From a virus: DNA of 20,983 nt. The stretch spans positions 1 to 20,983 of IMG/VR virus record IMGVR_UViG_3300023084_001235; one strand, written 5' to 3'. The notes below the pieces were generated by a model that was not told where the DNA came from, made no database searches, and was given only the letters and a program-made list of their open reading frames with translations. Below are positions 2,167 to 20,983 of the stretch, piece after piece. Within the stretch, counting starts at the first letter, position 1. Each line of letters opens with the position of its first letter. The translations under genes were made by a program, and so were the position numbers.

Positions 2167-2174
2167 TATTTATC
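2167..2174 (-). promoter_or_regulatory. T4-type late promoter motif GATAAATA
   Basis: On the minus strand GATAAATAC reads 2174-2166, ending 22 nt before the ATG at 2144 and overlapping the stop codon (2170-2172) of the DnaE-like gene. It matches NATAAATA, the late promoter core of T4-like cyanophages (T4: TATAAATA). A start point a few nt downstream would leave a leader of about 15 nt carrying the TAGGAGA ribosome-binding site. Confidence 0.65.
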
Positions 2175-2700
2175 TTAAGAACTCACGCCAATCCAGGCCA
2201 TATTGGATTGAGTCAATCCTGTGTACTCCTATAATATATAGCACATAACTAGCCACAGAACTGCCTCTTCCGACACCCCAAACAATACCATTTTCACGCA
2301 TAAAGTCTACAAGATAAATCATGTAACGTAATAAGTTGTGCATATCACGTTCTTTGAAAGCATCTAATTCTTCCCATATGCGATCTTGTACGTGTTGCGG
2401 ACAAGGTGTTTTTGCTTTGCCTAGGACATAGTCATATACATTAATGTCTTTGTATTCATCAGGCATAAACCATTCACTTTGACATACACCGTCAAAAGTT
2501 TTTTGATCTGTATCAATTGGAATATAGTTTTGAACTTGTTTGTAACCGTTTTCTTTTGCATATTGATTAAACTTGTCAATATCATCGTTTGGGTTACACA
2601 GTACCACATGACACTTATCAATATGACCAGAATAAATCATATCAATTAAGTTACGATTAGAAAAGATTGGAATTCCGTTGGTATCTGTTTTTAAAAGCAT
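2170..2700 (-). CDS. DnaE-like stub: fragment of bacterial DNA polymerase III alpha subunit
   Basis: A 176-aa protein whose last 70 residues match the start of the catalytic palm region of bacterial DNA polymerase III alpha (DnaE/PolC, family C). It has a helix with EELDAFKERDMHNLLRYM, then VDFMRENGIVWGVGRGSS (132-148; DnaE has VGPGRGSAAGS), then SYVLYIIGVHRIDSIQYGLD and REFL (DnaE: YxLGIxxxDPxxYGLxFERFL). It stops exactly where DnaE continues to the PDIDxDF metal-binding aspartates, so the polymerase active site is absent. The first 110 residues match nothing I recognise. No Shine-Dalgarno is seen; the ATG sits at the foot of a perfect 10-bp hairpin, in the same frame as the preceding gene and 9 nt after its stop. 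Polymerase activity is unlikely. A DNA- or replisome-binding role, or interference with host polymerase, is speculation. Confidence 0.7.
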   Translation of the reverse strand: MLLKTDTNGIPIFSNRNLIDMIYSGHIDKCHVVLCNPNDDIDKFNQYAKENGYKQVQNYIPIDTDQKTFDGVCQSEWFMPDEYKDINVYDYVLGKAKTPCPQHVQDRIWEELDAFKERDMHNLLRYMIYLVDFMRENGIVWGVGRGSSVASYVLYIIGVHRIDSIQYGLDWREFLR

Positions 2701-2724: not shown

Positions 2725-2934
2725 TAAATTGTCAAGATCTTTATCTTGATTTTTTGCCATTTCCTGTGCGTAACGGCTACGTAACTCTAATCTATACATT
2801 TCAATTAGTGTTGCCATTTGATTTTTAACTTCAGGGTTTCTAGTCATGAAGAACTTTTTGGATAAATCCTGCATTCTATTTTCTAGTTGCGGAGTTGTAT
2901 AATTGTTTAAGTTTTCTTCAATTGGGTGAAACAT
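2710..2934 (-). CDS. Small helical hypothetical protein (74 aa)
   Basis: A 74-residue, highly charged protein starting MFHPIEENLNNYTTPQLE, predicted by eye to be mostly helical with an amphipathic, coiled-coil-like middle (MATLIEMYRLELRSRYAQEM). No catalytic motif, cysteine pair, signal peptide or membrane segment. The ATG at 2934-2932 is preferred over one 19 codons upstream because it overlaps the stop of the fibre gene by one base (TAATG), a junction seen at two other gene pairs here, and because the upstream extension is antisense-like sequence inside the neighbour. It ends in a TAA that lies in the loop of a hairpin, and the next gene continues in the same frame after three codons. Small helical proteins of this kind occur beside structural genes of marine T4-like phages; the function is unknown. 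Confidence 0.7.
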   Translation of the reverse strand: MFHPIEENLNNYTTPQLENRMQDLSKKFFMTRNPEVKNQMATLIEMYRLELRSRYAQEMAKNQDKDLDNLINVS

Positions 2935-3518
2935 TACGCAAATTGTCCAACATATTGTACGAAAATTGATGAACCAGCATTGTAAGTCCACATATCAATA
3001 ACTTTTGGATTTTCGTCGCTGTCAATTGTAAGTGTGTTTACAAAGTTCTGATTTCCGTCTACTGTTGGCCAATCATTGTGAAATTTAAGGGTACTACCTG
3101 CTTCAGTTCCTAATGTTAATGTTCTTGATGTACCATCGTTTACAATCATTAATCTTAGTTTACCTACTTTACCTGATTCTGGCCAGTTAGTAGTAGTTAA
3201 AGTAACATCACCACCCATAGTAAATGTTTGAAGTGGACCGTTAGCAAAATCAACGTTTTGAGAGGATGTAACTGTTCCGCCAGCGTTTAGTTCTTCTGAA
3301 ATATTTACTAGGTTAGCATTTAGGATATTATTTCCTAAAAAGTTGTTTGCTTCGTTTTTCTTTGCAGTATTATCTTGCAGTAATTCAATTTCTGCTTTTG
3401 CCGCCACAAAGTTGTTTTTGATAACTCCAAAGTTATCTCTAAATCCTTGTGAATCGTTGTCCTGTCCTGCAACAGGATATTGCGAGTTAATACTTACGTC
3501 ATCAATGTTACTTGCCAT
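2934..3518 (-). CDS. Virion fibre-type structural protein, 194 aa
   Basis: The N-terminus (SINSQYPVAGQDNDSQGFRDNF, then IKNNF to residue 37, followed by a short helix ending ELLQ) is a divergent copy of the docking module found at the start of three other fibre genes here (G(T)GD..R.AF.K.N.NF.EL). The rest is a Thr/Asn/Gly-rich beta domain with the segments TVTSSQNVDFANGPLQTFTM, TTTNWPESGKVGKLRLMIVN and a C-terminal DMWTYNAGSSIFVQYVGQF. A WP.SGK...L.L strand followed by a WT.(G)GS..F..Y.G.F ending recurs in marine T4-like phage fibres and presumably is a small receptor-facing or capping domain. AGAGGA lies about 8 nt before the start and a GATAAATA late promoter 21 nt upstream. No homologue with proven function is recognised. 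Confidence 0.75.
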   Translation of the reverse strand: MASNIDDVSINSQYPVAGQDNDSQGFRDNFGVIKNNFVAAKAEIELLQDNTAKKNEANNFLGNNILNANLVNISEELNAGGTVTSSQNVDFANGPLQTFTMGGDVTLTTTNWPESGKVGKLRLMIVNDGTSRTLTLGTEAGSTLKFHNDWPTVDGNQNFVNTLTIDSDENPKVIDMWTYNAGSSIFVQYVGQFA

Positions 3519-6144: not shown

Positions 6145-6810
6145 TTAAAGTGGGTTTGTAATAGTTCCTACATCAATATCAACGTCTGTAGGTGTAACAA
6201 CAGTGCCTAAATCAACATCTATTGTTGTACCTAAAAACTCAATAATACTTGACGCAGATTTTGTAATAGTACCAAAGTTGAATCCGTATACATCACGAAC
6301 ATCAACATCATATACTAAACTTTCAATATTTCTTACATTGAGAATTTTGTTGCCTTGACCATCTAATGTGCCTCCTAGTTGAGGTGTAGCATCACTGGAT
6401 AGTTCTGTAAGAGAATTAATTACAATACCATCAGGCCCTTGTGTAGCAGTGTTTACATTTGTACCGCCAGCAATAGTAAATGTATCACCTTCTGCAAGTG
6501 TAATATTTCCTGCATCTGTACTAACTACTAGTGCTTGTAGTCCTCCAACACTTGAAATAATAACACCATTTGCGTCAGATGTTACAGTAACATTTCCGCC
6601 AGCAACAATTTTCTTAAACTGTAAATCAAATCCGCTTTTTTGTGCAAAGACGCCTTCACCTACTGTACCTAGGTTAGATGCAGTAGTTTGCTCAGGATTA
6701 CGGTTATCTAGTTCTGTAAAGTTATTGTTAACCTTTACAAACGCTTCGCGTAGATCGTCACCTGTTCCGTCATTTGCTACGCCGCCGATGTTTACTAAAT
6801 TAATTGCCAT
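6145..6810 (-). CDS. Fibre-type virion protein with shared N-terminal docking module (221 aa)
   Basis: It opens with the shared module (INLVNIGG, then NDGTGDDLREAFVKVNNNF to residue 31, TEL), near identical in pattern to the starts of the 323- and 2526-aa proteins. Next come short beta-rich segments: VGEGVFAQKSGFDLQFKKI, a Gly/Val/Thr-rich stretch (GGNVTVTSD) and TPQLGGTLDGQGNKILNV, a motif typical of phage tail fibre stalks (LGG.LD..G..I). The last 60 residues are repetitive (GTITKSASSIIEFLGTTIDV, then VTPTDVDIDVGTITNPL), perhaps a beta-helical tip. No enzyme motif. The start is fixed by the module alignment, although the only ribosome-binding candidate (AGGA) is 11 nt away and a GATAAATA motif ends just 5 nt before the ATG. 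It lies between the protease and the He_PIG protein, supporting a fibre or adaptor role. Confidence 0.75.
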   Translation of the reverse strand: MAINLVNIGGVANDGTGDDLREAFVKVNNNFTELDNRNPEQTTASNLGTVGEGVFAQKSGFDLQFKKIVAGGNVTVTSDANGVIISSVGGLQALVVSTDAGNITLAEGDTFTIAGGTNVNTATQGPDGIVINSLTELSSDATPQLGGTLDGQGNKILNVRNIESLVYDVDVRDVYGFNFGTITKSASSIIEFLGTTIDVDLGTVVTPTDVDIDVGTITNPL

Positions 6811-6823: not shown

Positions 6824-9511
6824 CTATTCTGGTGGTTGCTTTCTTATTGAACGTTTTGGACGAGGATATAACGCTCCTACAGACGGTCTGCTTTGTCTTT
6901 TCTGTGGAGGATATAACGCACCGGTTAGTTGCCGTTCAAAATAATATCTAGCGTGTAGGTTTGGCGATCCTTGTAAGTCATCTGAGTCTGTTGGAATATC
7001 AGTAGCAGTAGCATCGTATAATTGACCTTCTACTGCCCAATTACTTTGTAGATACGCTTTTACATCTTCTTGTTTGAAGTGAGGATATGTCTCCATCAAA
7101 CAAGCAACTAGGCCAGCAACTTGAGGACTAGCCATTGATGTACCTGAAATTTTTCCAACCCTATAATTCGAATCTCTAGGATCTAAATAAGTTGTGGACG
7201 GAAATGAAGTATTCAAAGGACTCATAATATAATGTCCAGGTGCGTATATGTCAACACCAGGACCGCAGTCGCTAAAATAAACTTTTCTATCTAAACCGTT
7301 TGTTAGTGCAGTATCAGTGGCTCCTACGCAAATATTAGGAAGATCATAATCACCATTTACAAGATCATCGTTTGCTGTGGGAGATGTACCTCGCATATAA
7401 TAATATGTATTACCATTCATTTCAAAAGTGTTATCCCAGTCAGGACCACCCGGAACATCGTGTTTCCAACTACCATTACCTGCGGCTCCTATTGTAATAA
7501 CTCCAGCATCAATTGCATCTTCAATGTCTGCATCAAGTGCCGCAACTCTTAAAGGAATTCTCGCTCCACTTATAAAACCCCAACCATTAAGTTGTGCTGT
7601 TGTAAAAGTTCCTGTAGAACTCTTAGCATTATTTGATTCAATAATTAAATCTATTTGTGTTGGGGTTGCTTCGTAAAATTTATATTCATATTTAATTGTA
7701 GGCGAACCTAGCACACCACCAGTATATGTAGTATGCCCTTCATAAATAACACTAAAGATTCTACTACCTACACTGCCACTTGCTCCGTAATAAATCCTTT
7801 GGGCACTTCTGTCTCCACCTGCAACCATAATCTTTGGAAGGGCTGGAGTATTTTCATCAATGCCCGAATATTGGTTAGAACCAGCACCAAATGTTAGGTA
7901 ACTGTTAGTACCTAGATAAACTGTGTTATAACTTTGGCTTAGGTAAGTCATGTTAAATGGTAAACTAATTTGCCAGTAACCGTCGTCATTATTTCCTGAT
8001 GTCGGAGTAACACTAGCAGTCATAGTAGCAGTGCTTGAAATAGTTTGTGTACCTAAAGATGTAATAGATGCCGCTGGATTCGCCGCTTGATAGTTTACAA
8101 TAGTACAATTTATTTCAGTTGAAGTTGTAGGACTAGATGCTTCTGTTACTGTACTTTCGTAGGTGATACTATATTGTTCGTTATTAGGCAAGTTAATGTT
8201 ACCACTGATCAAATCAACTTCAGCAAGACCACCTTCGATTGATGTGTCACTGTTACTGTTAGTATGAATAATATTAGATCCTGAGTCTTGAATAGTTACA
8301 GTTAGGTCTACACTTGAAATACCTGTTAAACCTTGGGTAGCAACATTGTGTTTGTAGGTAATTGTAGTTGGTCCTTGAATTAGAGCAGTATAACTAGCAT
8401 TAGGAACAGTACTTGTAACTAAACTAATTTGTCCACCAATCCTTGTCCAACCAGTTGGTGTGCTATTAAAGTCACCATTGATTGCACCTTCGCTACCACT
8501 TGTAGTAATACGTTGTCCAAGTCCGTTATCTGGATCTGCTGTAAATGTTGCTAGTGATGCCGTAGAACTATAAACTCCGTTAGCACCTTCATAAACAATA
8601 CTACCGCTTGGAACAAATCTAGTTCCTCTATATGTAACAGCATCAATTGAACTAAAACTCCATTCCTGAGGGAAAATACTCATACCCCAACTACTATTAA
8701 CTACTGTAGGATTTTTAATTCCAGTTGCTGGATTAACACTTTTGTTTTCATGAAATGCTCGAATGTAGTCATACACGTAAGGAAAGTTGTTGTTGCCAAC
8801 AGCGCCTGCATAGTAGTATAGGTTATACAAGTTTGCGTTTCTTGCCCAACCGTGTCTGTTACCGCCTGCTGTACCCATAACGTGATTAGCATGATAACTT
8901 CCAGGATTACTATATGAGTATGTTCCTGCACTTCCGCCTGTTACTGTTGGATTATGCTGATACCAGTTATATTGTACAATTCTTGATGCGGAGCCGTCAT
9001 CTGTGTCTTGTCCTGAAAGTTGAGTATACTCTGGATGACCAGTGTTTAATCCATCTCCGTCACAAATAACTAGATCAACATTCCTACCTGTAGCATTAAA
9101 TTCAATTGTTGTGTTTACTGATGTAAATGAACTACCCCAATTAGTTCTATTTTCACCATCAAGAAGTCGTAATAGACCCCAATTTAAATCTGTATTAGTT
9201 GTTCCAGAATCACGATCAAAATTACCTGTTTGTGAAACAGAAAATTCATCAACCTTAATGCCACTATCTTTAGGGTTAAGTTCAACTGCTTTTACACGAG
9301 GATCATTTCTTACTAGTTCTGCTTCTGCACCGCTTAACCAATATTCTGTTGTACGTGAATTAGGACGTTGATTGTTTGGAACTATTGCTCTATCGGGAAT
9401 ATAAAGAGAACCGCCCTCGGTCTGCATATCGTCATAAAAATCATTTAGATCGTCTTTGCTTTTTAGTGTAACCATGTACACTTGTTTTAAGACTTTCTTA
9501 GCCAAAGACAT
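6824..9511 (-). CDS. Subtilisin-like serine protease (S8) with large insertion, in the virion fibre block
   Basis: An 895-aa subtilase with all catalytic elements. Residues 12-80 resemble an I9 propeptide (VYMVTLKSKDDLNDF ... ELVRNDPRVKAVELNP). The Asp motif is VDLVICDGDGLNTGHPEY (145-162; catalytic Asp 151 or 153), the His motif HANHVMGTAGG (His207), substrate strand VNSSWG (271-276), oxyanion-hole Asn in GAAGNG (Asn679) and Ser motif GTSMASP (Ser792). His and Asn lie about 470 residues apart versus 91 in subtilisin, because about 375 residues (roughly 280-655) of Ser/Thr/Gly-rich beta domains are inserted before the DIEDAIDAGVITI helix. The C-terminus has two GALYPxxKR repeats. No signal peptide is seen. 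The ribosome-binding site GGAGG lies in the end of the 522-aa gene. Likely a virion enzyme for fibre maturation or host-surface cleavage; target unknown. Confidence 0.9.
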   Translation of the reverse strand: MSLAKKVLKQVYMVTLKSKDDLNDFYDDMQTEGGSLYIPDRAIVPNNQRPNSRTTEYWLSGAEAELVRNDPRVKAVELNPKDSGIKVDEFSVSQTGNFDRDSGTTNTDLNWGLLRLLDGENRTNWGSSFTSVNTTIEFNATGRNVDLVICDGDGLNTGHPEYTQLSGQDTDDGSASRIVQYNWYQHNPTVTGGSAGTYSYSNPGSYHANHVMGTAGGNRHGWARNANLYNLYYYAGAVGNNNFPYVYDYIRAFHENKSVNPATGIKNPTVVNSSWGMSIFPQEWSFSSIDAVTYRGTRFVPSGSIVYEGANGVYSSTASLATFTADPDNGLGQRITTSGSEGAINGDFNSTPTGWTRIGGQISLVTSTVPNASYTALIQGPTTITYKHNVATQGLTGISSVDLTVTIQDSGSNIIHTNSNSDTSIEGGLAEVDLISGNINLPNNEQYSITYESTVTEASSPTTSTEINCTIVNYQAANPAASITSLGTQTISSTATMTASVTPTSGNNDDGYWQISLPFNMTYLSQSYNTVYLGTNSYLTFGAGSNQYSGIDENTPALPKIMVAGGDRSAQRIYYGASGSVGSRIFSVIYEGHTTYTGGVLGSPTIKYEYKFYEATPTQIDLIIESNNAKSSTGTFTTAQLNGWGFISGARIPLRVAALDADIEDAIDAGVITIGAAGNGSWKHDVPGGPDWDNTFEMNGNTYYYMRGTSPTANDDLVNGDYDLPNICVGATDTALTNGLDRKVYFSDCGPGVDIYAPGHYIMSPLNTSFPSTTYLDPRDSNYRVGKISGTSMASPQVAGLVACLMETYPHFKQEDVKAYLQSNWAVEGQLYDATATDIPTDSDDLQGSPNLHARYYFERQLTGALYPPQKRQSRPSVGALYPRPKRSIRKQPPE
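6851..6922 (-). repeat. Two tandem GALYPxxKR repeats at the protease C-terminus
   Basis: Residues 864-872 (GALYPPQKR; 6922-6896) and 879-887 (GALYPRPKR; 6877-6851) repeat with a 15-residue (45-nt) period. The tail is basic and proline-rich, unlike the acidic-to-neutral catalytic domain, so it may be a sorting, docking or cleavage signal. The copies also resemble each other at DNA level (both contain GGATATAACGC on the plus strand). Confidence 0.7.
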
Positions 9512-11109: not shown

Positions 11110-12081
11110 TTATACTGCATCTGCAATTAATCTCCAACTACCATTTAAATAAACCACCATGGATTGAACACCAATTCCATACGGATCCCAACTACTGCCG
11201 TCTGCTATCGCTACCATGCCATCTGCTGGTGAAGTTGGAGCCGACGTTAACACTGGTAATTTAATTACACCGTTTAAAAATTCTGTTCCATAATTTTGTG
11301 TTTGAATACGTGGAGATGAGTTAGTATGTCTAATATCAGTACCGGTAATAGCATCAATTCTAAAAGCGTTTTCACTTGACCACTGACTTTGCTTAATGTT
11401 AATATCAAAAGCACCATAAGTTAGAATTTCAAAGTCATTACTGCCAGCGGCATTTATACCATTATCAATTTTGTTTATGTCTAATGCATAATAACCACTA
11501 ACTGAACTTTGTGTTAGTGTTAAGTAATCTGTTCCTGCTACTGCCGCTGAAATGTTTCCAGCACCGTCGGCTTTTACAATACCTGTAATTGCACCTACAA
11601 CTGGATCTGTTTCTGTGTAACTTACTAAGTAGTCTGTTCCTGCAACCGCTTGTGAAATATTACCAGCACCGTCTGCTTTTACTAATCCGTTAATAGCACC
11701 TACAACTGGATCTGTTTCTGGAGCAAGGTTTGTTAGTGCTGATCCATCTATTGCAGGTAAAGCGCCTGTAAGTGCAGTTGCATTAATTGTGCCTGCCGGA
11801 CCGTCGATTAATACAGTTGAATCATCTGCGGCAATAGTACCTTTTAAATCACCAACAAACTTTCCGTAGAATGTTCCAGTTGCTGAATCGTATGCTTTAG
11901 AACTGTCGCCACCAAACAAGTCCCCTTGAACATCTTGGGTAATAACGATCTGATTTTCTATTACAGCAACTTTACCATATAGTTCGGTAAAGTTATCATT
12001 TACTTTAGTAAACGCTGTGCGGATCGGATCACCATCACCTTTGTTAGCACTTGATCCTACATTAATAACTCTTTGTGCCAT
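11110..12081 (-). CDS. Tail-fibre-type protein with docking module and 35-residue tandem repeat (323 aa)
   Basis: Residues 1-35 are the shared docking module (RVINVGSSANKGDGDPIRTA, then FTKVNDNFTELY). A beta region follows with DLFGGDSSKAYDSATGTFYG and DSTVLIDGPAGTI, then two copies of a 35-residue repeat starting ETDPVVGAI and containing VKADGAGNIS and AVAGTDYL. The C-terminal third ends in LPVLTSAPTSPADGMVAIAD, then GSSWDPYGIG and VVYLNGSWRLIAD, a capping domain often seen at the tips of marine phage fibres (small sandwich with a W.P.G..Q..V.YLNG.W pattern). No enzymatic motif. The stop of this gene follows its neighbour's pattern: the start overlaps the giant gene's stop by one base (TAATG), so production is probably coupled to the giant protein. 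Role inferred: a short fibre or fibre tip. Confidence 0.8.
   Translation of the reverse strand: MAQRVINVGSSANKGDGDPIRTAFTKVNDNFTELYGKVAVIENQIVITQDVQGDLFGGDSSKAYDSATGTFYGKFVGDLKGTIAADDSTVLIDGPAGTINATALTGALPAIDGSALTNLAPETDPVVGAINGLVKADGAGNISQAVAGTDYLVSYTETDPVVGAITGIVKADGAGNISAAVAGTDYLTLTQSSVSGYYALDINKIDNGINAAGSNDFEILTYGAFDINIKQSQWSSENAFRIDAITGTDIRHTNSSPRIQTQNYGTEFLNGVIKLPVLTSAPTSPADGMVAIADGSSWDPYGIGVQSMVVYLNGSWRLIADAV
11509..11718 (-). repeat. Two 105-nt tandem coding repeats in the 323-aa fibre gene
   Basis: Copies at 11718-11614 and 11613-11509 each encode 35 residues starting ETDPVVGAI; they differ at only a handful of residues near the end. The conserved frame and exact 105-nt period point to recent duplication and make the copy number likely to vary between relatives. 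Confidence 0.85.
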
Positions 12082-15000
12082 TATACTCTCCCTACTACTG
12101 CTTCAACTGTTCCGCGTCCAGGGTCGTCTTTGGCTTGTAGTGCTTTACCAATTACAGTTCCTACTTTAGGATCCGAACTTGCTACTGCATAACCTGCTAT
12201 ACTTGCTGTTACAAGCATATCGCCTTTGCGTACTACACCAACTACGTTTACAGGAACTCTACCCTGTAATGCAATCGCTGTAACATGATCGCCTTCTGCA
12301 CCTGCGTTCATTAAGTAACCTGGTTTCTCTGAAACAACACCTGCTACTCTTGTATCGCCTTTAAGTGTAGTAGTTGTAATTTCTTGTTCACCACCGAATA
12401 TTAATACACTTCCAACTTCGTATTCTGCATCAGCCAAATAGTTCTCAGCCAAGTCAGCGTACAATGCTGTGTTTGCTTGAGCACTTGTTGTAATTGCCCA
12501 AACTTCATTAAATTTCTTAGTAGCACTACCAATGTTGTAAATGTCTGTTGTACCTGGAAGTATAGCACCGTTTGTAATTACAAGCGTTTGATCACCTGCT
12601 GTCATAAAGCCAATTTGGTCAGCATTTGAAAAACCTGTGCCTGCGCCAATTGCAATACCAGTTGAGTTGTTGTCTGCTTCGTTTGGTGCTTCAATAAAGT
12701 GTGAATACATCCAATCAGCGGCAACATAGGCTTCTCCAGCATATGTACTATTAGCCTGTGTATTACTTTCTGTAGGTCTAGCATTGCCAACATTCAAGTT
12801 ACCTATCATGTTGTTGTTAGTAGTACCAGTACCAGTAGTTTGTGATGTTAAGAAGTTAGTGCTTCCTGGATTTGTAAATGTTACTGTTGTACCTGATGTG
12901 TCAATAGTTTTATTACTATCTACAAACAATGCTTGTACGTTAATAGCACCATTGGCATCTGTTTTAACAATAGCATCTGGAAAACCTGTTGTAGTAAATG
13001 TACCACCCGAGTTAACAATAGTTGAGAACGGAATAGCACTTACATCGCCGTCAGCACTGTCACCACTTGCTCTACCAATTACAGTTTCATCTGGAATGTT
13101 AGCAAGTTTAGTGATTGGTAACTGTCCTTCGTCAATGCTAATAAAGCCGTTGTTGCTACTAAACACAACACTGTCAAATACAGCAAGACCTAAATTTGCT
13201 TGTGTTACACCAACTGCTGTTGAACGTGTAGTTGCCGACTGCATATTCAACTTGCTTTGTGCAATTTGTGCCGCGGCATTTACATCTGCGTTTACAATAC
13301 TACCGTCTGCAATTCCTGTTGCAACAGTTTTATCAACAGCATTATAAGTAAACTCAAAATATCCTGTTGGTGTAGCAGTATCCCATTCTGTGCCAGTCCA
13401 TACAATAATGTCGTTTGCATTTCTGCCACCATTGGCACCAGTACCATACATTAGTGAGTTACCAAATGGAGTTCTACCATCTACATAACGTTTGTTTGTA
13501 GCATCAAACTCTGCACCTGGATCACCTAGTGATGTAATTTGGTTAGTTGCCATGTTCAAGTTATCAGTCATTGATGTTGAACCGTCTCTAGCAATAAAGC
13601 CTGGACCGATTGGATTATCAACTAACTGTGAAGTTTCATCAATGTGGGTACGTCTATTAAAGTAACCTCGTACTGCTGATTCAGTCGGTGCTGAGTCAAC
13701 AGCATTATCTGTCATAGCATCATCACTTGAGAATTCAGTAATAACAACACCACGTTTGAAACCAATACCATCTAGGTTACTCAATGCAATTGAAGCCGCA
13801 AATGTAACTCGACCTGTACCTTGGTCAACTGTAAAGAATCTACCTACACGGAAGAAACCATCTTGGTCGGTTGATACGTAGAACACCCGCCCTTTATCAC
13901 GTTCTTGTACTTCGTGTGCTTGTACTGGCTCTTGTGGAGCACCATAAATTTTACCTGGATAGTTTGAACTATTGAAACCACCCGAACCAATATCATTAAA
14001 GTCATGTCCAGTTGCTCTACATACTGAAATATTAACAGTTAAGCCTGCATTCTCGCCTGAGTTCAAACCTGCTCTTATGTTAATAGCGTTTGTAGCATTT
14101 TGCATTGTGGATTGAATACCACTTGCAACAACAGCATCACCTAGTGCCGCATCGTTAATGCTATTGACATCTTCAATGTTAATAATACCGAAACCTGATT
14201 TTTGTGAGTAACTTAAAATTCTATGTACTTTGCCTTCCCAAGCAAAAATCATATCTCCATTGTTTAGTCGATTAATTTCTGTTTGTTCTGAAAGAGACTC
14301 AATAGCAATATTAACGTCACCAGCAGTAGCACCTTGTGTAGTACCTGTTCCTGCATAAGTTGTACCTGCAACATTGGCTTGGTCAATAACCATTCTAACA
14401 TAATCATAGTTAGAATCAAATGTAATTAAACTTTGTGAACTAGGAGTTGGTAATGCATCACCAACAGCGTTTGCACTACCAAATGCGATTGTTCTATATG
14501 TGTAATCATCTTGTTCGTCAAACACAATAGCAGTTGAAGGCCTAATAACAGCAGTTTGTTTTAGATCACTAAAGATAAAGTTTTGTAATGATCTAATTTG
14601 TACCTTTTGATTATTAGAAAGTGCCGCAGTTAACCCGTCATTACCTGTAATGTTTAATTTAAATATTTCTCCATCACGTGAAGCACCTACTACATCTGCC
14701 GCATCGGTTCTTTGAATACTTGCTACTTCATAACGAACAAGACCTGTTGTACCGCCGTGATCAACTTCTAGTTCTGAAATGTTAGTAGGAATAAAATCTA
14801 AATCATAAACGTAAACAGTATTCTTACCTTCTTCGTTTAGGTATAAAACTCCGTCATCGTAAACACGAGCAACCTGCACCATTGGTTGGAATAATGTAAT
14901 CTGATCAATAACTTCGTTTGGATCCGATCCTGCCGCAACCAAACCATAGTTACCATTTGAGTTAGAACCGTTTAGTGATCTAATCTGCGAACCATTGTTT

Positions 15001-18000
15001 GCCATATATGCCGCATGACAGTAGTATGTAAATGTTGATACTTGCTCTGTTAGTGCGCCGTTGTTAACAACAATACCATAGCCTAAATCGTTAACCTGTG
15101 TATAGTCGTTTGCCAACATTGAAGTGTTACCAGCAGTTTGTAATACAATATCTGTAAAGTCTGCAAAAGTAAATCCTGCACCGTCACCTGATGTTGGATT
15201 TAGGAATAGTGTTGCAGTACCTGCCGCTTGGTCATAGTTTGTAACAGCATCAACTTGATAACGCACACCTTGAATATAAAACGGACATGGTGTTTCTGGT
15301 CTACGTTTTCTTAAACCACTGCCTACACCACTTGATACGTTAAGTGTAAATGGATCGTCTTTTGAAGTAACAGTCATTGTAGTGTTAGCGGTAAATGCAT
15401 CAATGTACATACCGCCTCTAAATGCTTGTTTGTTTACACTCTTACTAAATGTACCACAAACCTGTACATATGGAGATTTAATTAAGATTTGTCCATCTGG
15501 GTCAAGTACCTGAGCAAAGCCACCGTGACCTTGCATTGTTACGTTCATAATTCTGTTTGAATCGTTCATCATGAACACATCAATATCTTGGTTGTTCTTA
15601 GGTGGATTGTAGTTTGCGTCAAAAGCAAATTTAACACAGTCAACTAAGTTTTCCATGTGTATTTGTGCAAACGTTTCTGCTGTACTGCTTGTTGTAGTAT
15701 TTTGTGGAACTGCAGATTGTCTACTATCTGCAAATGGTGTTTTGCTTAAAACAGCCGCACCAATTGTTTTAATGTAATTAATAGCATCTGCTGTTTGACT
15801 TTCTTGTCCGCTTACAGCACCTGTGTAGTAAGCAGTTTGGTTTGCTAGAGTTTCAACTCTACCACCATTTACTAAGTCAGCAACTAAACCATCAATGATA
15901 AGTCTAGTATCTCTGGCACATTTTGCTTCATTGTAACTGAACACTTGACTGTCAACATAAGCAATAGTACTTGTAATAATGTCTGCTCTACGTCCGATAA
16001 TATTTGAACGAGCATCTTGTAATGCTTGTGTTGCCCAAGTAACACTAGGAAGTACTTCTGCCGCTAAACTGTTTAAGTTGCCAATAGTGATAACATCTTC
16101 TACAATCTGTACAAGAGTATTAATAGCATTTGATTCCGGAGCACCTGCCGCAGGATTTGAAGTGTCTTGTGTTTCTGTATTACCTGCTGTCGGAGTAACT
16201 GTTAGACCTGTTACAATAATGCCCATTACGTTTGCTAAGTGATTGTAAGTAGAAACAGTAATTGCGCCTTCGCCTGCACCTAGTTGACTTGCCGCACCAA
16301 CAAAATATGATTCAGCAACCTTGCGGGTAGCATAGTTGCCACCGTATAAAACGTCATGTGTTAATGCGTCTACTAAGTATCCAACATCACGTGAACATTT
16401 AGCAGAGTCATAACTGTGTGCTGGGAAGTTTACTGAAATATAAGCAAGTGCTTCTTGTCTAATAAAATCTCTGTTTGCTTGTAAGTGTAGTGCCGCATCG
16501 TCTGCGTCTGTAGTTGGTAACACACTTGGTACAGGATATGTAATTGGATCTGCATTTCCAAGTCCGTTTTGTAAAATGTCAACAACTTCATTCATACCTA
16601 CAGTAACACGAGTAACTGCTGTTGGATCAGAAGCCACATCAGTTAGAGCAAGTACTTCATCTCTAGCATCTTGAATAGCACCAACAGTATATGTTAACTG
16701 ATTGCTTTGCAAGTATGCTGTGTTGGCACGTTGATATGCTTTACCTGCTGTAACAGTGTTATAGTTAGTTCCTAATGCTACGTCTAAACTTACAGCATCA
16801 AGTATTAAACCTGTATCACGCTCACACTTATTTTGATCGTATGTAAATGTAGAATACGTTTCGTTGATGTATTCAATTAATTCTTGTGTAATAAACTCTT
16901 TGTTAAGTTTAAGTAGATCTGCCGCCCCTGGGAATTCTCCAGGATTGTCAATACCGTTGACACCTAAGTTAACCGGTTTAGTAGGATCTTCAGTGTAGTG
17001 ATATCCATAACGTGGATCAAGTAAGTCTGGAAGATTAGCCAAACCGTTAGTAATAACATCAATAAGGCTGTCCATCAAACTTGTAATACGAGTAGTTGTT
17101 CCGCTTTCAGCAATGTAATTTGCATCTGTAACTTGTGTTGTAATTGACTGGAACGGAGTATAAGACGCTTGAGGTAAAATTGTGTCTACAATTAAATCTC
17201 TTGTAAATGTATTTGCCAAAGCAGTTTGTGCTTCTTGACCATTAATTAAACTTTGTGTACCCACATAGTATTTCGCCGCCGCTTCGTAGGTTTTAGCATT
17301 ACCTTTGTATTTCAAGTCGTGGCTAACAGCATCAATAATAAGACCTGTATCACGCTCACACTTTGCTTCGTTATATGTAAAGTTCTCCCAAATACTACCC
17401 GGAGTAGCATTTGCAATTTGATTTGTGATATAACCAATAGTTTCGTCTTTAATAAATTCTCTGTTTGCTTGAATCAAATAATAAGCATCTGGATTGTATG
17501 TTGGAATTAGATCCAATCCATCAAAGTTTGCGTCACGATAAAAATATGTGTTAATCCATTTAGACTGCGAACCTCTGTTCTTTGGACGCATAATACAACG
17601 TCTAAAGTCTGTACCTTTAATAGATACGTTTGCAGGAAGTTTGATTGGATAATCTTCGTAGAATGTTCCAGACTCTACGTGAATACAAATCTGTTGTGTT
17701 CTAGTAAAGTTACCAAACTCTAATTTTTCTTGTAATGCAAACTGTTTAGGTTCAATTAAGAAAACTCTTAGTGTATCTTCGTTAGCACCTCTAGTATATT
17801 TTACAATACGACCTAATGCACCTGTTGTTTTACCTCTAATAATTTTACCTGGTAAAATATCAACATTGTTTGGAGCGCCTTGATCAACATAACCTTGACC
17901 GCCGTTAGAAATAACTAGGGTTACAGTTGAACCTTCAACTAGTGCTGTTGTATCTAATACTCCTAACCCATTTTCGATAATGTTAGTTGATACGTCAATT

Positions 18001-19661
18001 TTAGCAAGTACAGCATTTCTTACAGTTGATGTTACAATTTCTGCAACGTCAATTGTTTGTGAAATACCTGATGTATTTCTTACAGGAGTAACAGTTCCGT
18101 TTTGTAGGATAATGTTAATAAGTGCCTTACCGTAGTTAATACCTGCAAGTGTTTCAGTTAATTGTGTTGTTCTAGCAATTTGCGCCGAAACGTTTTGGAA
18201 ATATCTCTTACCAACTTGAATTGATTGGAAGTTAGCATTAAGTCCGTTTTCAATATCAATAGCAAGTGCTTCAACAATGTAACCCATGTCACGTTCACAC
18301 GTTGCTTGGTTGTATTGGAAGTTTGGATATGTTGCATTAATGTATGCAACGATTTCTTTTTGAATGAATACTTTGTTTGCTAATAATAAATTTTTAGCAG
18401 GAATACCATCTGTGTGTGCCGAAGTAACGTTCTGACTATTAAGTACAGATTCGCCTTCTCCATCATTGTAGGTAACAGTCTGAATATATGCACCTGGCTC
18501 TAATGGTGAACATTCAATAATTTCTTCTGCTTTTTCACAAGCCTTACCAATTGTCTTATAAGCAAATTGTAATGAACGACCTTCTTTGCCTACCGGTGAA
18601 AATGCTTGTGTGTCGTCACCGTTTGTTCTAACATATAAATCAACAACAGATGTAAAACTTGAGTTGTCAACATAAAACTTTGTAGCCGCTTGTAAATCAT
18701 CTACATCATTTGGTGTACCACTGCCTGCCAAGTTACCTGGGTGATCATGTAGATATAAAGGACCTTCCATGTCATCGCCTTGTCTACGTACTGTAGCACT
18801 TCTTGGCATTGCCTCTGTGCTTAGATAAGTTCCGTAAAGAGCGTTATCATAGTCACCGTCTGTAATAGTATGTGTGCCGCCTGGATTACCTGAAACCCCA
18901 CCGTTCGCTGAAATCTTATTAGTATTTGAAATAGCATCACCTGCTGACGGATGAATACTTAACTGGCTAGCACTTACGTATCTTACGTAGTAAGTGTCGC
19001 CACTGTTCATATTAATAGGATCTGTGCCATCGTTTGTGTACTTCCAAGGAGTACCGTTGACATTATGATCAAAACCGTGATTAGCAACAATAAGATTGCC
19101 ATTAGTAAAACTACCAACTGTGAAAGTATAACCTGAAGCATCTACAGGTTCTGCTCTCATTCTATTTGCTACACCTTTCTTCTGATAAGACATATCGTTG
19201 TATTTCTTATCTGCAACAAGATCGTGTACTGTAATTGCTGTACTATGTGTAGTGTTAAAATCAACTGCCGCTTGATCTGAAATAGGACCAATATTACCTA
19301 GTGTGTAGTTGCCAGAGCCGTCTAAGAATCCACCAATTTGGGGTTGTAAATCTTGGTTAATTCTACCGCCACTGTTTGTAATAACTAGTTCGTCTGGATC
19401 AGTGTTATCAATTAAAATACCAGGACCGCCTACTACATTTTTCATTAGTAGTTCTGCTCCAGTATCGTTTGATACTACAATTTTGTTTGAACCTAGATCG
19501 TCTGGCGTATCAGAAAGTGCTGTAAAACGAATGGTTCCGCCTTGTCCAAATACAGCATAAAGTTCTGAAAAGTTTTCATTAGTTTTGCCGAACGCATCGC
19601 GGATACTATCACCAGTTCCGTCGTTACCTTCAACACCAATATTAATCGTTTGCTTTGGCAT
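12081..19661 (-). CDS. Giant fibre/appendage protein with helical CERD repeats and chaperone-like C-terminus (2526 aa)
   Basis: The largest gene here. Residues 1-35 form the shared docking module (QTINIGVEGNDGTGDSIRDA, then FGKTNENFSELY). Fibre-stalk sequence follows, including METGPLYL-type DMEGPLYLHDHPGN and DLQAATKFYVDN (about 300-340). Residues about 425-1310 carry five helical repeats centred on C(E/S/A)RD(M/T/V)G. The first is separated from the rest by a beta-helix-like piece (HVESGTFYEDYPIKLPANVS near 660-680), and a further beta-helix-like piece follows (MQGHGGFAQVLDPDGQILIK near 1370). Later come YYCHAAYMANNGSQIRSLNG (about 1540), FSSDD...PTESAVRGYF (about 1990) and a C-terminal 125 residues, DLAENYLADAEYEVGSVL...RVAGVVSEKPGYLMNAG, resembling fibre C-terminal folding or self-cleaving domains. 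Ribosome-binding site AGGGG; TATAAATA lies 52 nt upstream. Likely a host-contact fibre; location in the virion is unproven. Confidence 0.85.
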   Translation of the reverse strand: MPKQTINIGVEGNDGTGDSIRDAFGKTNENFSELYAVFGQGGTIRFTALSDTPDDLGSNKIVVSNDTGAELLMKNVVGGPGILIDNTDPDELVITNSGGRINQDLQPQIGGFLDGSGNYTLGNIGPISDQAAVDFNTTHSTAITVHDLVADKKYNDMSYQKKGVANRMRAEPVDASGYTFTVGSFTNGNLIVANHGFDHNVNGTPWKYTNDGTDPINMNSGDTYYVRYVSASQLSIHPSAGDAISNTNKISANGGVSGNPGGTHTITDGDYDNALYGTYLSTEAMPRSATVRRQGDDMEGPLYLHDHPGNLAGSGTPNDVDDLQAATKFYVDNSSFTSVVDLYVRTNGDDTQAFSPVGKEGRSLQFAYKTIGKACEKAEEIIECSPLEPGAYIQTVTYNDGEGESVLNSQNVTSAHTDGIPAKNLLLANKVFIQKEIVAYINATYPNFQYNQATCERDMGYIVEALAIDIENGLNANFQSIQVGKRYFQNVSAQIARTTQLTETLAGINYGKALINIILQNGTVTPVRNTSGISQTIDVAEIVTSTVRNAVLAKIDVSTNIIENGLGVLDTTALVEGSTVTLVISNGGQGYVDQGAPNNVDILPGKIIRGKTTGALGRIVKYTRGANEDTLRVFLIEPKQFALQEKLEFGNFTRTQQICIHVESGTFYEDYPIKLPANVSIKGTDFRRCIMRPKNRGSQSKWINTYFYRDANFDGLDLIPTYNPDAYYLIQANREFIKDETIGYITNQIANATPGSIWENFTYNEAKCERDTGLIIDAVSHDLKYKGNAKTYEAAAKYYVGTQSLINGQEAQTALANTFTRDLIVDTILPQASYTPFQSITTQVTDANYIAESGTTTRITSLMDSLIDVITNGLANLPDLLDPRYGYHYTEDPTKPVNLGVNGIDNPGEFPGAADLLKLNKEFITQELIEYINETYSTFTYDQNKCERDTGLILDAVSLDVALGTNYNTVTAGKAYQRANTAYLQSNQLTYTVGAIQDARDEVLALTDVASDPTAVTRVTVGMNEVVDILQNGLGNADPITYPVPSVLPTTDADDAALHLQANRDFIRQEALAYISVNFPAHSYDSAKCSRDVGYLVDALTHDVLYGGNYATRKVAESYFVGAASQLGAGEGAITVSTYNHLANVMGIIVTGLTVTPTAGNTETQDTSNPAAGAPESNAINTLVQIVEDVITIGNLNSLAAEVLPSVTWATQALQDARSNIIGRRADIITSTIAYVDSQVFSYNEAKCARDTRLIIDGLVADLVNGGRVETLANQTAYYTGAVSGQESQTADAINYIKTIGAAVLSKTPFADSRQSAVPQNTTTSSTAETFAQIHMENLVDCVKFAFDANYNPPKNNQDIDVFMMNDSNRIMNVTMQGHGGFAQVLDPDGQILIKSPYVQVCGTFSKSVNKQAFRGGMYIDAFTANTTMTVTSKDDPFTLNVSSGVGSGLRKRRPETPCPFYIQGVRYQVDAVTNYDQAAGTATLFLNPTSGDGAGFTFADFTDIVLQTAGNTSMLANDYTQVNDLGYGIVVNNGALTEQVSTFTYYCHAAYMANNGSQIRSLNGSNSNGNYGLVAAGSDPNEVIDQITLFQPMVQVARVYDDGVLYLNEEGKNTVYVYDLDFIPTNISELEVDHGGTTGLVRYEVASIQRTDAADVVGASRDGEIFKLNITGNDGLTAALSNNQKVQIRSLQNFIFSDLKQTAVIRPSTAIVFDEQDDYTYRTIAFGSANAVGDALPTPSSQSLITFDSNYDYVRMVIDQANVAGTTYAGTGTTQGATAGDVNIAIESLSEQTEINRLNNGDMIFAWEGKVHRILSYSQKSGFGIINIEDVNSINDAALGDAVVASGIQSTMQNATNAINIRAGLNSGENAGLTVNISVCRATGHDFNDIGSGGFNSSNYPGKIYGAPQEPVQAHEVQERDKGRVFYVSTDQDGFFRVGRFFTVDQGTGRVTFAASIALSNLDGIGFKRGVVITEFSSDDAMTDNAVDSAPTESAVRGYFNRRTHIDETSQLVDNPIGPGFIARDGSTSMTDNLNMATNQITSLGDPGAEFDATNKRYVDGRTPFGNSLMYGTGANGGRNANDIIVWTGTEWDTATPTGYFEFTYNAVDKTVATGIADGSIVNADVNAAAQIAQSKLNMQSATTRSTAVGVTQANLGLAVFDSVVFSSNNGFISIDEGQLPITKLANIPDETVIGRASGDSADGDVSAIPFSTIVNSGGTFTTTGFPDAIVKTDANGAINVQALFVDSNKTIDTSGTTVTFTNPGSTNFLTSQTTGTGTTNNNMIGNLNVGNARPTESNTQANSTYAGEAYVAADWMYSHFIEAPNEADNNSTGIAIGAGTGFSNADQIGFMTAGDQTLVITNGAILPGTTDIYNIGSATKKFNEVWAITTSAQANTALYADLAENYLADAEYEVGSVLIFGGEQEITTTTLKGDTRVAGVVSEKPGYLMNAGAEGDHVTAIALQGRVPVNVVGVVRKGDMLVTASIAGYAVASSDPKVGTVIGKALQAKDDPGRGTVEAVVGRV
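15731..18390 (-). repeat. Five CxRD helical repeats within the giant protein (bounds approximate)
   Basis: Five copies of a segment of about 140-180 residues, with the conserved Cys near residues 455, 768, 946, 1089 and 1248. Each has a helix like (L/H)LQANR(D/E)FI(R/K)QE..AYI, an aromatic (F/S)YN/D pair, then C.RD.G.(I/L)(I/V)DA...D...G.N and a later Tyr (KYYVG, AYQRA, SYFVG, AYYTG). The first and second copies are 313 residues apart because a beta-rich stretch lies between. Degenerate at DNA level, so old rather than recent duplication. Confidence 0.8.
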
Positions 19662-20484: not shown

Positions 20485-20983
20485 TTATGCTGGTAGTAGT
20501 TCTTTCGATGTTAAATCCGGCTGATTTACACCGTTTTTATTTACTTGATGCTTGTACAATGCAATACTAGCCAAATTCTTAGCCTTGCTCTCTACCATAA
20601 TGTCTGCATGATCACGGAATGATAATGCCCAATCATTAACTGCTGAATTCCACATATAATCACTGTGGGCACGAAGTTTTGCTTTTTTGTAGCCTTGTTC
20701 TAGTAATAAATCTCTATTAGGTAATACTGTAGGGTCAAAGTCTACAAGGTAATCCTCTCTTGAAACTGAGTAATGAATAACGGGACGCACACCACGCCAA
20801 CTGTCTACTATGCGTAGAAATCTATCGTCGGTGGGTAGTATGTATTCTCCACTATTGACCCAGTGGTGGTGTATGTCAAGAACGAGTGCGACGTGTTCGG
20901 CAAGTTCCAAACTGGCGTCGATGCCCCAGGACATTTCGTCATTTTCAATTGTAATACAGTTTCGTGCTTCTGGAGACAGTCTT
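20485..20983 (-). CDS. UV-damage endonuclease, UvdE/UvsE family (C-terminal 165 aa, cut by window edge)
   Basis: UvdE enzymes nick DNA 5' of UV photoproducts. Reading past the first internal ATG, the frame stays open to the window edge, giving RLSPEARNCITIENDEMSWG: the ATG at 20934 lies inside the conserved ENDE-M-SW segment and is not the true start. Metal-ligand positions can be placed: Glu of ENDE, Asp and His in VLDIHHH, His in PVIHYS, His in AHSDYMW and Glu in DIMVESKAK. Spacing from the AHSD His to the last Glu is 25, as in Thermus UVDE by my recollection, while the stretch between the two preceding His residues is about 20 residues longer. The Lys two residues before the PVIH His that some family members carry appears to be Val here. 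UV repair fits a phage of sunlit water. The rest of the protein lies outside the window. Confidence 0.9.
   Translation of the reverse strand, partial: RLSPEARNCITIENDEMSWGIDASLELAEHVALVLDIHHHWVNSGEYILPTDDRFLRIVDSWRGVRPVIHYSVSREDYLVDFDPTVLPNRDLLLEQGYKKAKLRAHSDYMWNSAVNDWALSFRDHADIMVESKAKNLASIALYKHQVNKNGVNQPDLTSKELLPA

Follow-up and report, generated by a model that had tools for sequence, protein, structure and literature searches.

Phycobiliprotein-like globin-fold repeats are predicted to interrupt the beta-helix of a giant phage tail fibre protein

Results

Organization of the locus

The window, by which the whole analysed stretch of 20,983 nucleotides is meant, is a fragment of an uncultured T4-like phage, with a gp44-type clamp loader and proteins carrying gp9/10-like N-termini. 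No tRNA was found in it. The following features were assigned to one giant fibre protein, with the boundaries of repeats R1 to R5 set by a hidden Markov model (HMM):

12081..19661, minus strand: open reading frame of the giant tail-fibre/baseplate-type protein P0001, 2526 aa; PHROG tail fibre families phrog_4527, 9851 and 5342
19542..19661, minus strand: anchor-like N-terminal module, residues 1-40, resembling the T4 gp9/gp10 N-terminus (Pfam T4_gp9_10_N)
18432..18659, minus strand: segment A, predicted beta-helix, residues 335-410; precedes segment B in the order conserved among relatives, with strands in the model
17979..18434, minus strand: repeat R1, residues 410-561, CxRD at 455 (18288-18299); iE 4.8e-45 with the HMM from other phages, helical in the model with pLDDT about 90
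17496..17744, minus strand: segment B, predicted beta-helix, residues 640-722 (ICIHVESGTFYEDYPIKLPANVSIKGTDFRRCIMRP); order in relatives, strands at 580-693 with pLDDT about 83-94
17043..17513, minus strand: repeat R2, residues 717-873, CxRD at 768 (17349-17360); HMM iE 7.4e-44
16563..16979, minus strand: repeat R3, residues 895-1033, CxRD at 946 (16815-16826); HMM iE 5.1e-35
16080..16529, minus strand: repeat R4, residues 1045-1194, CxRD at 1089 (16386-16397); HMM iE 7.5e-46, AlphaFold2 model, fold matches in the PDB
15624..16049, minus strand: repeat R5, residues 1205-1346, CxRD at 1248 (15909-15920); HMM iE 1.1e-30
15372..15608, minus strand: segment C, predicted beta-helix, residues 1352-1430; order in relatives, strands with pLDDT about 80-90
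15147..15371, minus strand: non-helical insertion of 75 aa between segments C and D, residues 1431-1505; from comparison with relatives
14826..15146, minus strand: segment D, predicted beta-helix, residues 1506-1612; order in relatives
12105..12593, minus strand: C-terminal domain, residues 2357-2519, common to non-cyanophage fibres (phrog_22593; phage matches)

The Pfam match of residues 1-40 (E 1.1e-4, 22.8 bits) was just under the curated cut-off of 25. The gp9/gp10-like N-terminal motif INIG..DGTGD.IR.AF.K.N.NF.ELY was found in three ORFs of the window (12081-19661, 11110-12081 and 6145-6810, all on the minus strand; Pfam match weak), and a fourth, 2934-3518, possibly has a similar N-terminus, judged by eye. 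This shared N-terminus may be a common docking module of several fibre proteins. At the opposite end, Campylobacter and Sinorhizobium phage proteins match P0001 at residues ~2331-2524.

The fibre cluster also holds an 895-aa ORF with a subtilase (Peptidase_S8) domain (6824-9511, minus strand, E 3.5e-16). A partial gene for the UV-endonuclease UvdE lies at the window edge (20485-20982, minus strand, E 5e-11). A 176-aa ORF (2170-2700, minus strand) has GRGSSVASYVLYIIGVHRID near its end, which we take to resemble a motif of the catalytic region of DNA polymerase III alpha (DnaE).

Detection and conservation of the repeats

The giant ORF holds five CxRD motifs in all, one per helical repeat of about 150 aa, while only 0.034 such motifs would be expected from composition alone. 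An HMM built solely from other phage loci recovered all five (iE 1e-30 to 8e-46) and gave no match on the reversed window protein. The motif positions and this HMM confirm the preliminary description of the region, which had placed five helical CxRD repeats at 15731-18390 (residues 424-1311). A phmmer search of the whole window protein against the PDB gave no match.

An alignment of 423 repeats yielded a consensus beginning nA..LL.ANk.FIQaEviAYIn.typgF.YD.aKC.RDvGyIvDAia.DLlyGGN.QSi.AG..Yyng. Within CxRD the Cys is conserved in 95% of the repeats, the Arg in 95% and the Asp in 98%. It is usually the sole Cys, and 5% of the repeats lack it. A function of this conserved residue is probable. As exactly one Cys is present in 79% of the repeats, the sequences make a disulphide within one repeat unlikely.

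The PHROG families phrog_4527 and phrog_5342, both from cyanophages, were each matched by 17 of the 17 repeats of alignment A1. They contain the same repeats, yet are named only short tail fibre and tail fibre, and no link to the fold or to a bilin motif was found in their annotation or in the papers searched.

Beta-helix context and insertion sites

The two beta-helix-like stretches described earlier are present at about residues 658-692 and 1363-1407, and exactly R2 to R5 lie between them, as had been claimed for four of the five repeats. R1, whose position had been left out of that description, is inserted separately, after the N-terminal beta-helix segment A (335-410) and ahead of the first stretch.

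Segments A to D of the window protein were converted into HMMs and searched against ORFs from 204 viral loci. The order A-B-C-D was constant among relatives, with rare exceptions, while the number of repeats between the segments varied: 0, 1, 3, 5 or 6 between A and B, 0 to 4 between B and C, and 0, 2, 3 or 4 between C and D. The window has the layout A-r-B-rrrr-C-D; A-r-B-rr-C-D occurred in 13 ORFs and A-r-B-r-C-D in 30. In two loci (L208 and L211) segments B, C and D are contiguous, with gaps of -11 and 11-12 residues, and form an unbroken beta-helix-like sequence. The insertion between C and D is absent from these two loci, in which 11-12 aa separate C from D, and is 75-77 aa long in the orthologues of the window protein.

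An AlphaFold2 model of residues 340-1539, with anchored rows in its alignment, predicted the repeats as helical and placed strands at 580-693 and 1363-1523, so that further strands extend upstream of segment B to residue 580. R3 and R4 were mostly of low confidence in this model, where the alignment was thin. Beta strands flanked the repeats, and the outcome that would have spoken against the preliminary description, a lack of beta-helix on both flanks, was not seen. Foldseek matched this model to beta-helix enzymes (GH110, K1 capsule lyase), to globins and to many phycobiliproteins; segments A to D would thus share the fold of right-handed beta-helix proteins such as GH110 galactosidases and the K1 capsule lyase. 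We know of no interruption of these matched proteins by tandem globin-fold domains, unlike the phage fibre. With the segment order, the contiguous B-C-D of the two loci and the strands on both sides in the model, it is well supported that helical repeats interrupt a right-handed beta-helix, as first proposed from the sequence.

Copy number variation

The number of repeats in relatives, which it had been suggested to compare, does vary: the HMM detected from 1 to 32 per ORF among related phage fibres, with a median motif-to-motif spacing of 162 aa. The closest orthologues of the window protein (best segments 65-76% identical) have three CxRD repeats, compared with five in the window. They lack exactly 302 residues, 952-1253, and 302 aa is also the spacing between C946 of R3 and C1248 of R5. 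The difference therefore amounts to two whole units, in register.

The largest HMM copy number, 32, was seen in an ORF of 5331 aa (locus L171, from 8657), and a 6682-aa ORF on contig G048 has about as many repeat matches or more. In phage P-HM2 (GU075905) the region 46318-59682, annotated as gp7 baseplate wedge initiator of about 4454 aa, holds two repeats.

Predicted fold of the repeat

R4, extended at both ends (1011-1198), was modelled with AlphaFold2 without templates from an alignment of 90 phage sequences. The model was mainly helical, with a mean pLDDT of 89.7 and 96-98 in the core. When it was compared by Foldseek with 350,542 PDB chains, 29 of the 30 top matches were named phycobiliproteins; the only other name among them, 'bacterial fluorescent protein', stood at rank 14. 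These 30 matches had prob 0.97-1.00 and TM scores of about 0.4-0.6 by query and up to 0.73 by target. The first ordinary globin appeared at rank 31, and from there globins were mixed with more phycobiliproteins. The E-values were modest (best 0.009), and the TM of 0.54-0.60 is a fold-level result and no proof of homology. In the viral library, the named matches up to E 0.1 were Synechococcus phage or uncultured phage proteins only.

The fold result is convincing because the comparison of sequence profiles agrees with it. HHalign aligned the repeats with 163 phycobiliproteins over 96 colinear columns with a probability of 94.4, and CxRD fell on the CxRD of bilin attachment. The corresponding P of 8.8e-8 applies to one comparison and has to be discounted by search size, as the phycobiliproteins were picked after database searches. 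With reversed profiles the probability was 0.2. In a blind sample of 20 cyanobacterial families, only two scored, with 93.9 and 92.8, and their position places both at the cpcBA locus; none of the others exceeded 1.0. A broader set gave the same register with 92.8, and the probability was 72.6 when only the five repeats of the window were used. When PDB sequences were searched with a profile, phycocyanin came up at E 0.018, then at 0.0022 with a deeper alignment; about half of the 17 matches were phycobiliproteins. Pfam Phycobilisome (PF00502) was the commonest Pfam match among 90 repeats (8 of 90, best E 0.0026), all under threshold, and its curated cut-off was never reached (best E 3.9e-4). 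The protein CroV588 was dropped as a relative of the repeat profile, as its match consisted of numerous weak stretches scattered through a repetitive protein.

From sequence profiles and model, the repeat is likely a phycobiliprotein-like globin-fold domain. This identity, and the position of the Cys on a bilin-attachment motif, had been missed in the preliminary description. The predicted fold is that of the light-harvesting phycocyanin, phycoerythrin and allophycocyanin (PF00502), with the motif K-C-x-R-D...GG in register at the bilin site and helices B to G colinear. The first 37 residues of phycobiliproteins are unmatched by the repeat: the profile alignment starts at residue 38 of CpcA and does not take in the N-terminal helices before it, which make dimer contacts in phycobiliproteins. 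The B-E loop is about 11 residues shorter in the phage repeat, and position +9 after the Cys is Asp in 86% of the repeats but Arg in 163 of 163 phycobiliproteins. Moreover, unlike the light-harvesting proteins, the phage domain occurs in tandem inside virion fibres. The repeat is thus phycobiliprotein-like, but is not classed as a light-harvesting member.

Alternatively, the resemblance of the fold and CxRD to phycobiliproteins might be a chance convergence, with the motif serving only as a helix-packing and salt-bridge element. The TM scores of fold level only and the sub-threshold Pfam matches would fit such an origin, as would phage-specific invariant residues such as the Asp at +14, present in 100% of the phage repeats and missing in phycobiliproteins. 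HHalign also gave a probability of only 4.0, in the same register, with ten cyanobacterial candidates for bilin biosynthesis-associated globins (BBAGs), a weak match to a small set. We nevertheless regard convergence as unlikely: it would have to account for a 96-column colinear profile match with controls at or below 1%, for the dominance of phycobiliproteins in two fold searches from different alignments, and for their prominence in the PDB sequence-profile search. Shared ancestry with phycobiliproteins is inferred instead, with less certainty than the fold itself.

An inter-chain disulphide, by which the Cys residues would lock the fibre trimer, appears highly improbable. A single conserved Cys per repeat would leave an unpaired thiol free for another chain, but the R4 model puts this Cys at the fourth position of a long helix, the alignment places it at the phycobiliprotein bilin site, and 5% of the repeats lack it.

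Discussion

A modular insertion in the fibre

The computations on sequence and model demonstrate a predicted fold, the alignment of CxRD with the motif for bilin attachment, the insertion sites and a variable copy number. We hold it to be quite probable that the five CxRD repeats are tandem phycobiliprotein-like globin-fold domains, inserted at two beta-helix loops of the tail fibre and acting as a modular arm or spacer. R1 would be inserted between segments A and B, and R2 to R5 between B and C. The units may decorate or extend the fibre and expose a repeated surface, and recombination between units may add or remove copies in register. The repeat number may set the length of the fibre, as suggested in the preliminary description, but an insertion between adjacent coils of the beta-helix could equally well project sideways as a side arm.

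In the open-licence literature no report of phycobiliprotein-like or bilin/globin domains in phage tail fibres was found. The nearest concept there is that of the BBAGs, which are phycobiliprotein paralogues outside light harvesting (PMC10151467). BBAG-1 and BBAG-3, which share CXRD with the phage repeats, bind bilins without lyases (PMC10151467). BBAGs are, however, encoded by cellular genomes, within heme oxygenase/reductase gene clusters, while the phage repeats lie in fibre ORFs, and no heme oxygenase or bilin reductase gene was recognised beside them among the window ORFs examined.

Host range of the repeats

Among deposited phages, three repeat queries had 326, 198 and 188 matching records, almost exclusively from cyanophages; one was named Marine. 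Alignment A1 gave no match in ten cyanobacterial genomes, and psbA/psbD and CpeT gave none in 16 metagenomic repeat contigs of 44-332 kb. The clamp loader of the window is nearest to that of PA5oct-like Pseudomonas phages (60%). A cyanophage-only origin was dropped as a general rule, given the metagenomic contigs and this clamp loader, and the host of the window phage may not be a cyanobacterium.

Could the repeats carry bilins?

The repeats could be virion-borne biliproteins, with a bilin, synthesized by host or phage (heme oxygenase plus bilin reductase), bound covalently to the CxRD Cys, so that the fibres are pigmented and possibly light-sensing. The high conservation of CxRD with a Cys that is usually the sole one, and the lyase-free bilin binding of CxRD globins mentioned above, are consistent with this. 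A ferredoxin-dependent bilin reductase was present in 5 of 17 repeat-bearing contigs, with a heme oxygenase close to it in both contigs inspected (L296, 905-2079, and L297, 163-2067; no psbA), and repeats occurred in each of the five contigs of 200 kb or more that had been selected by their reductase. However, among relatives matched by the capsid protein gp23, repeats occurred in 6 of 9 contigs and the reductase in none. As repeats are common without the reductase in this control, the co-occurrence follows the clade. The repeats are missing from the cultured SAR11 phage Mosig, although it encodes heme oxygenase, a reductase and a related beta-helix fibre, and coupling of the repeats to the reductase was dropped after this phage and the gp23-matched control. 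P-SSM2, for which bilin genes have been reported (PMC2984593), is also without repeats, and the absence of CpeT from the 16 repeat contigs likewise argues against bilin attachment. Neither bilin genes nor repeats predict the presence of the other, and most repeat phages tested lack bilin genes.

Adsorption in the light gives a further hint. S-PM2 has ten repeat matches. By its title, a 2010 paper by Jia et al. deals with light-dependent adsorption to WH7803, the host of S-PM2, and S-PM2 itself was reportedly tested there. P-HM2 has four repeat matches and P-SSP7 none; adsorption in the dark was reduced or absent in P-HM2, with no such dependence in P-SSP7 (PMC7112961). The link to light nevertheless comes from three phages only and is confounded with virion type. 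Taken together, a bilin on the repeats is considered improbable, and we prefer the reading of a modular arm or spacer.

Significance

Phage tail fibres would be built in part from tandem copies of a fold linked to light harvesting, with the pigment-attachment motif kept, and a viral branch would be added to the history of phycobiliprotein-like globins. Very large fibre proteins, some with tens of copies, would gain a structural identity in place of their present annotation as mere tail fibre or hypothetical. Two questions become testable: why some cyanophages adsorb only in light, and what purpose phage bilin genes have in hosts without phycobilisomes, where they are 'still enigmatic' (PMC11480375). 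If the repeats were biliproteins, these phages would have pigmented or light-responsive attachment organelles, which would give a purpose to the puzzling bilin genes in some lineages and could bear on light-dependent adsorption.
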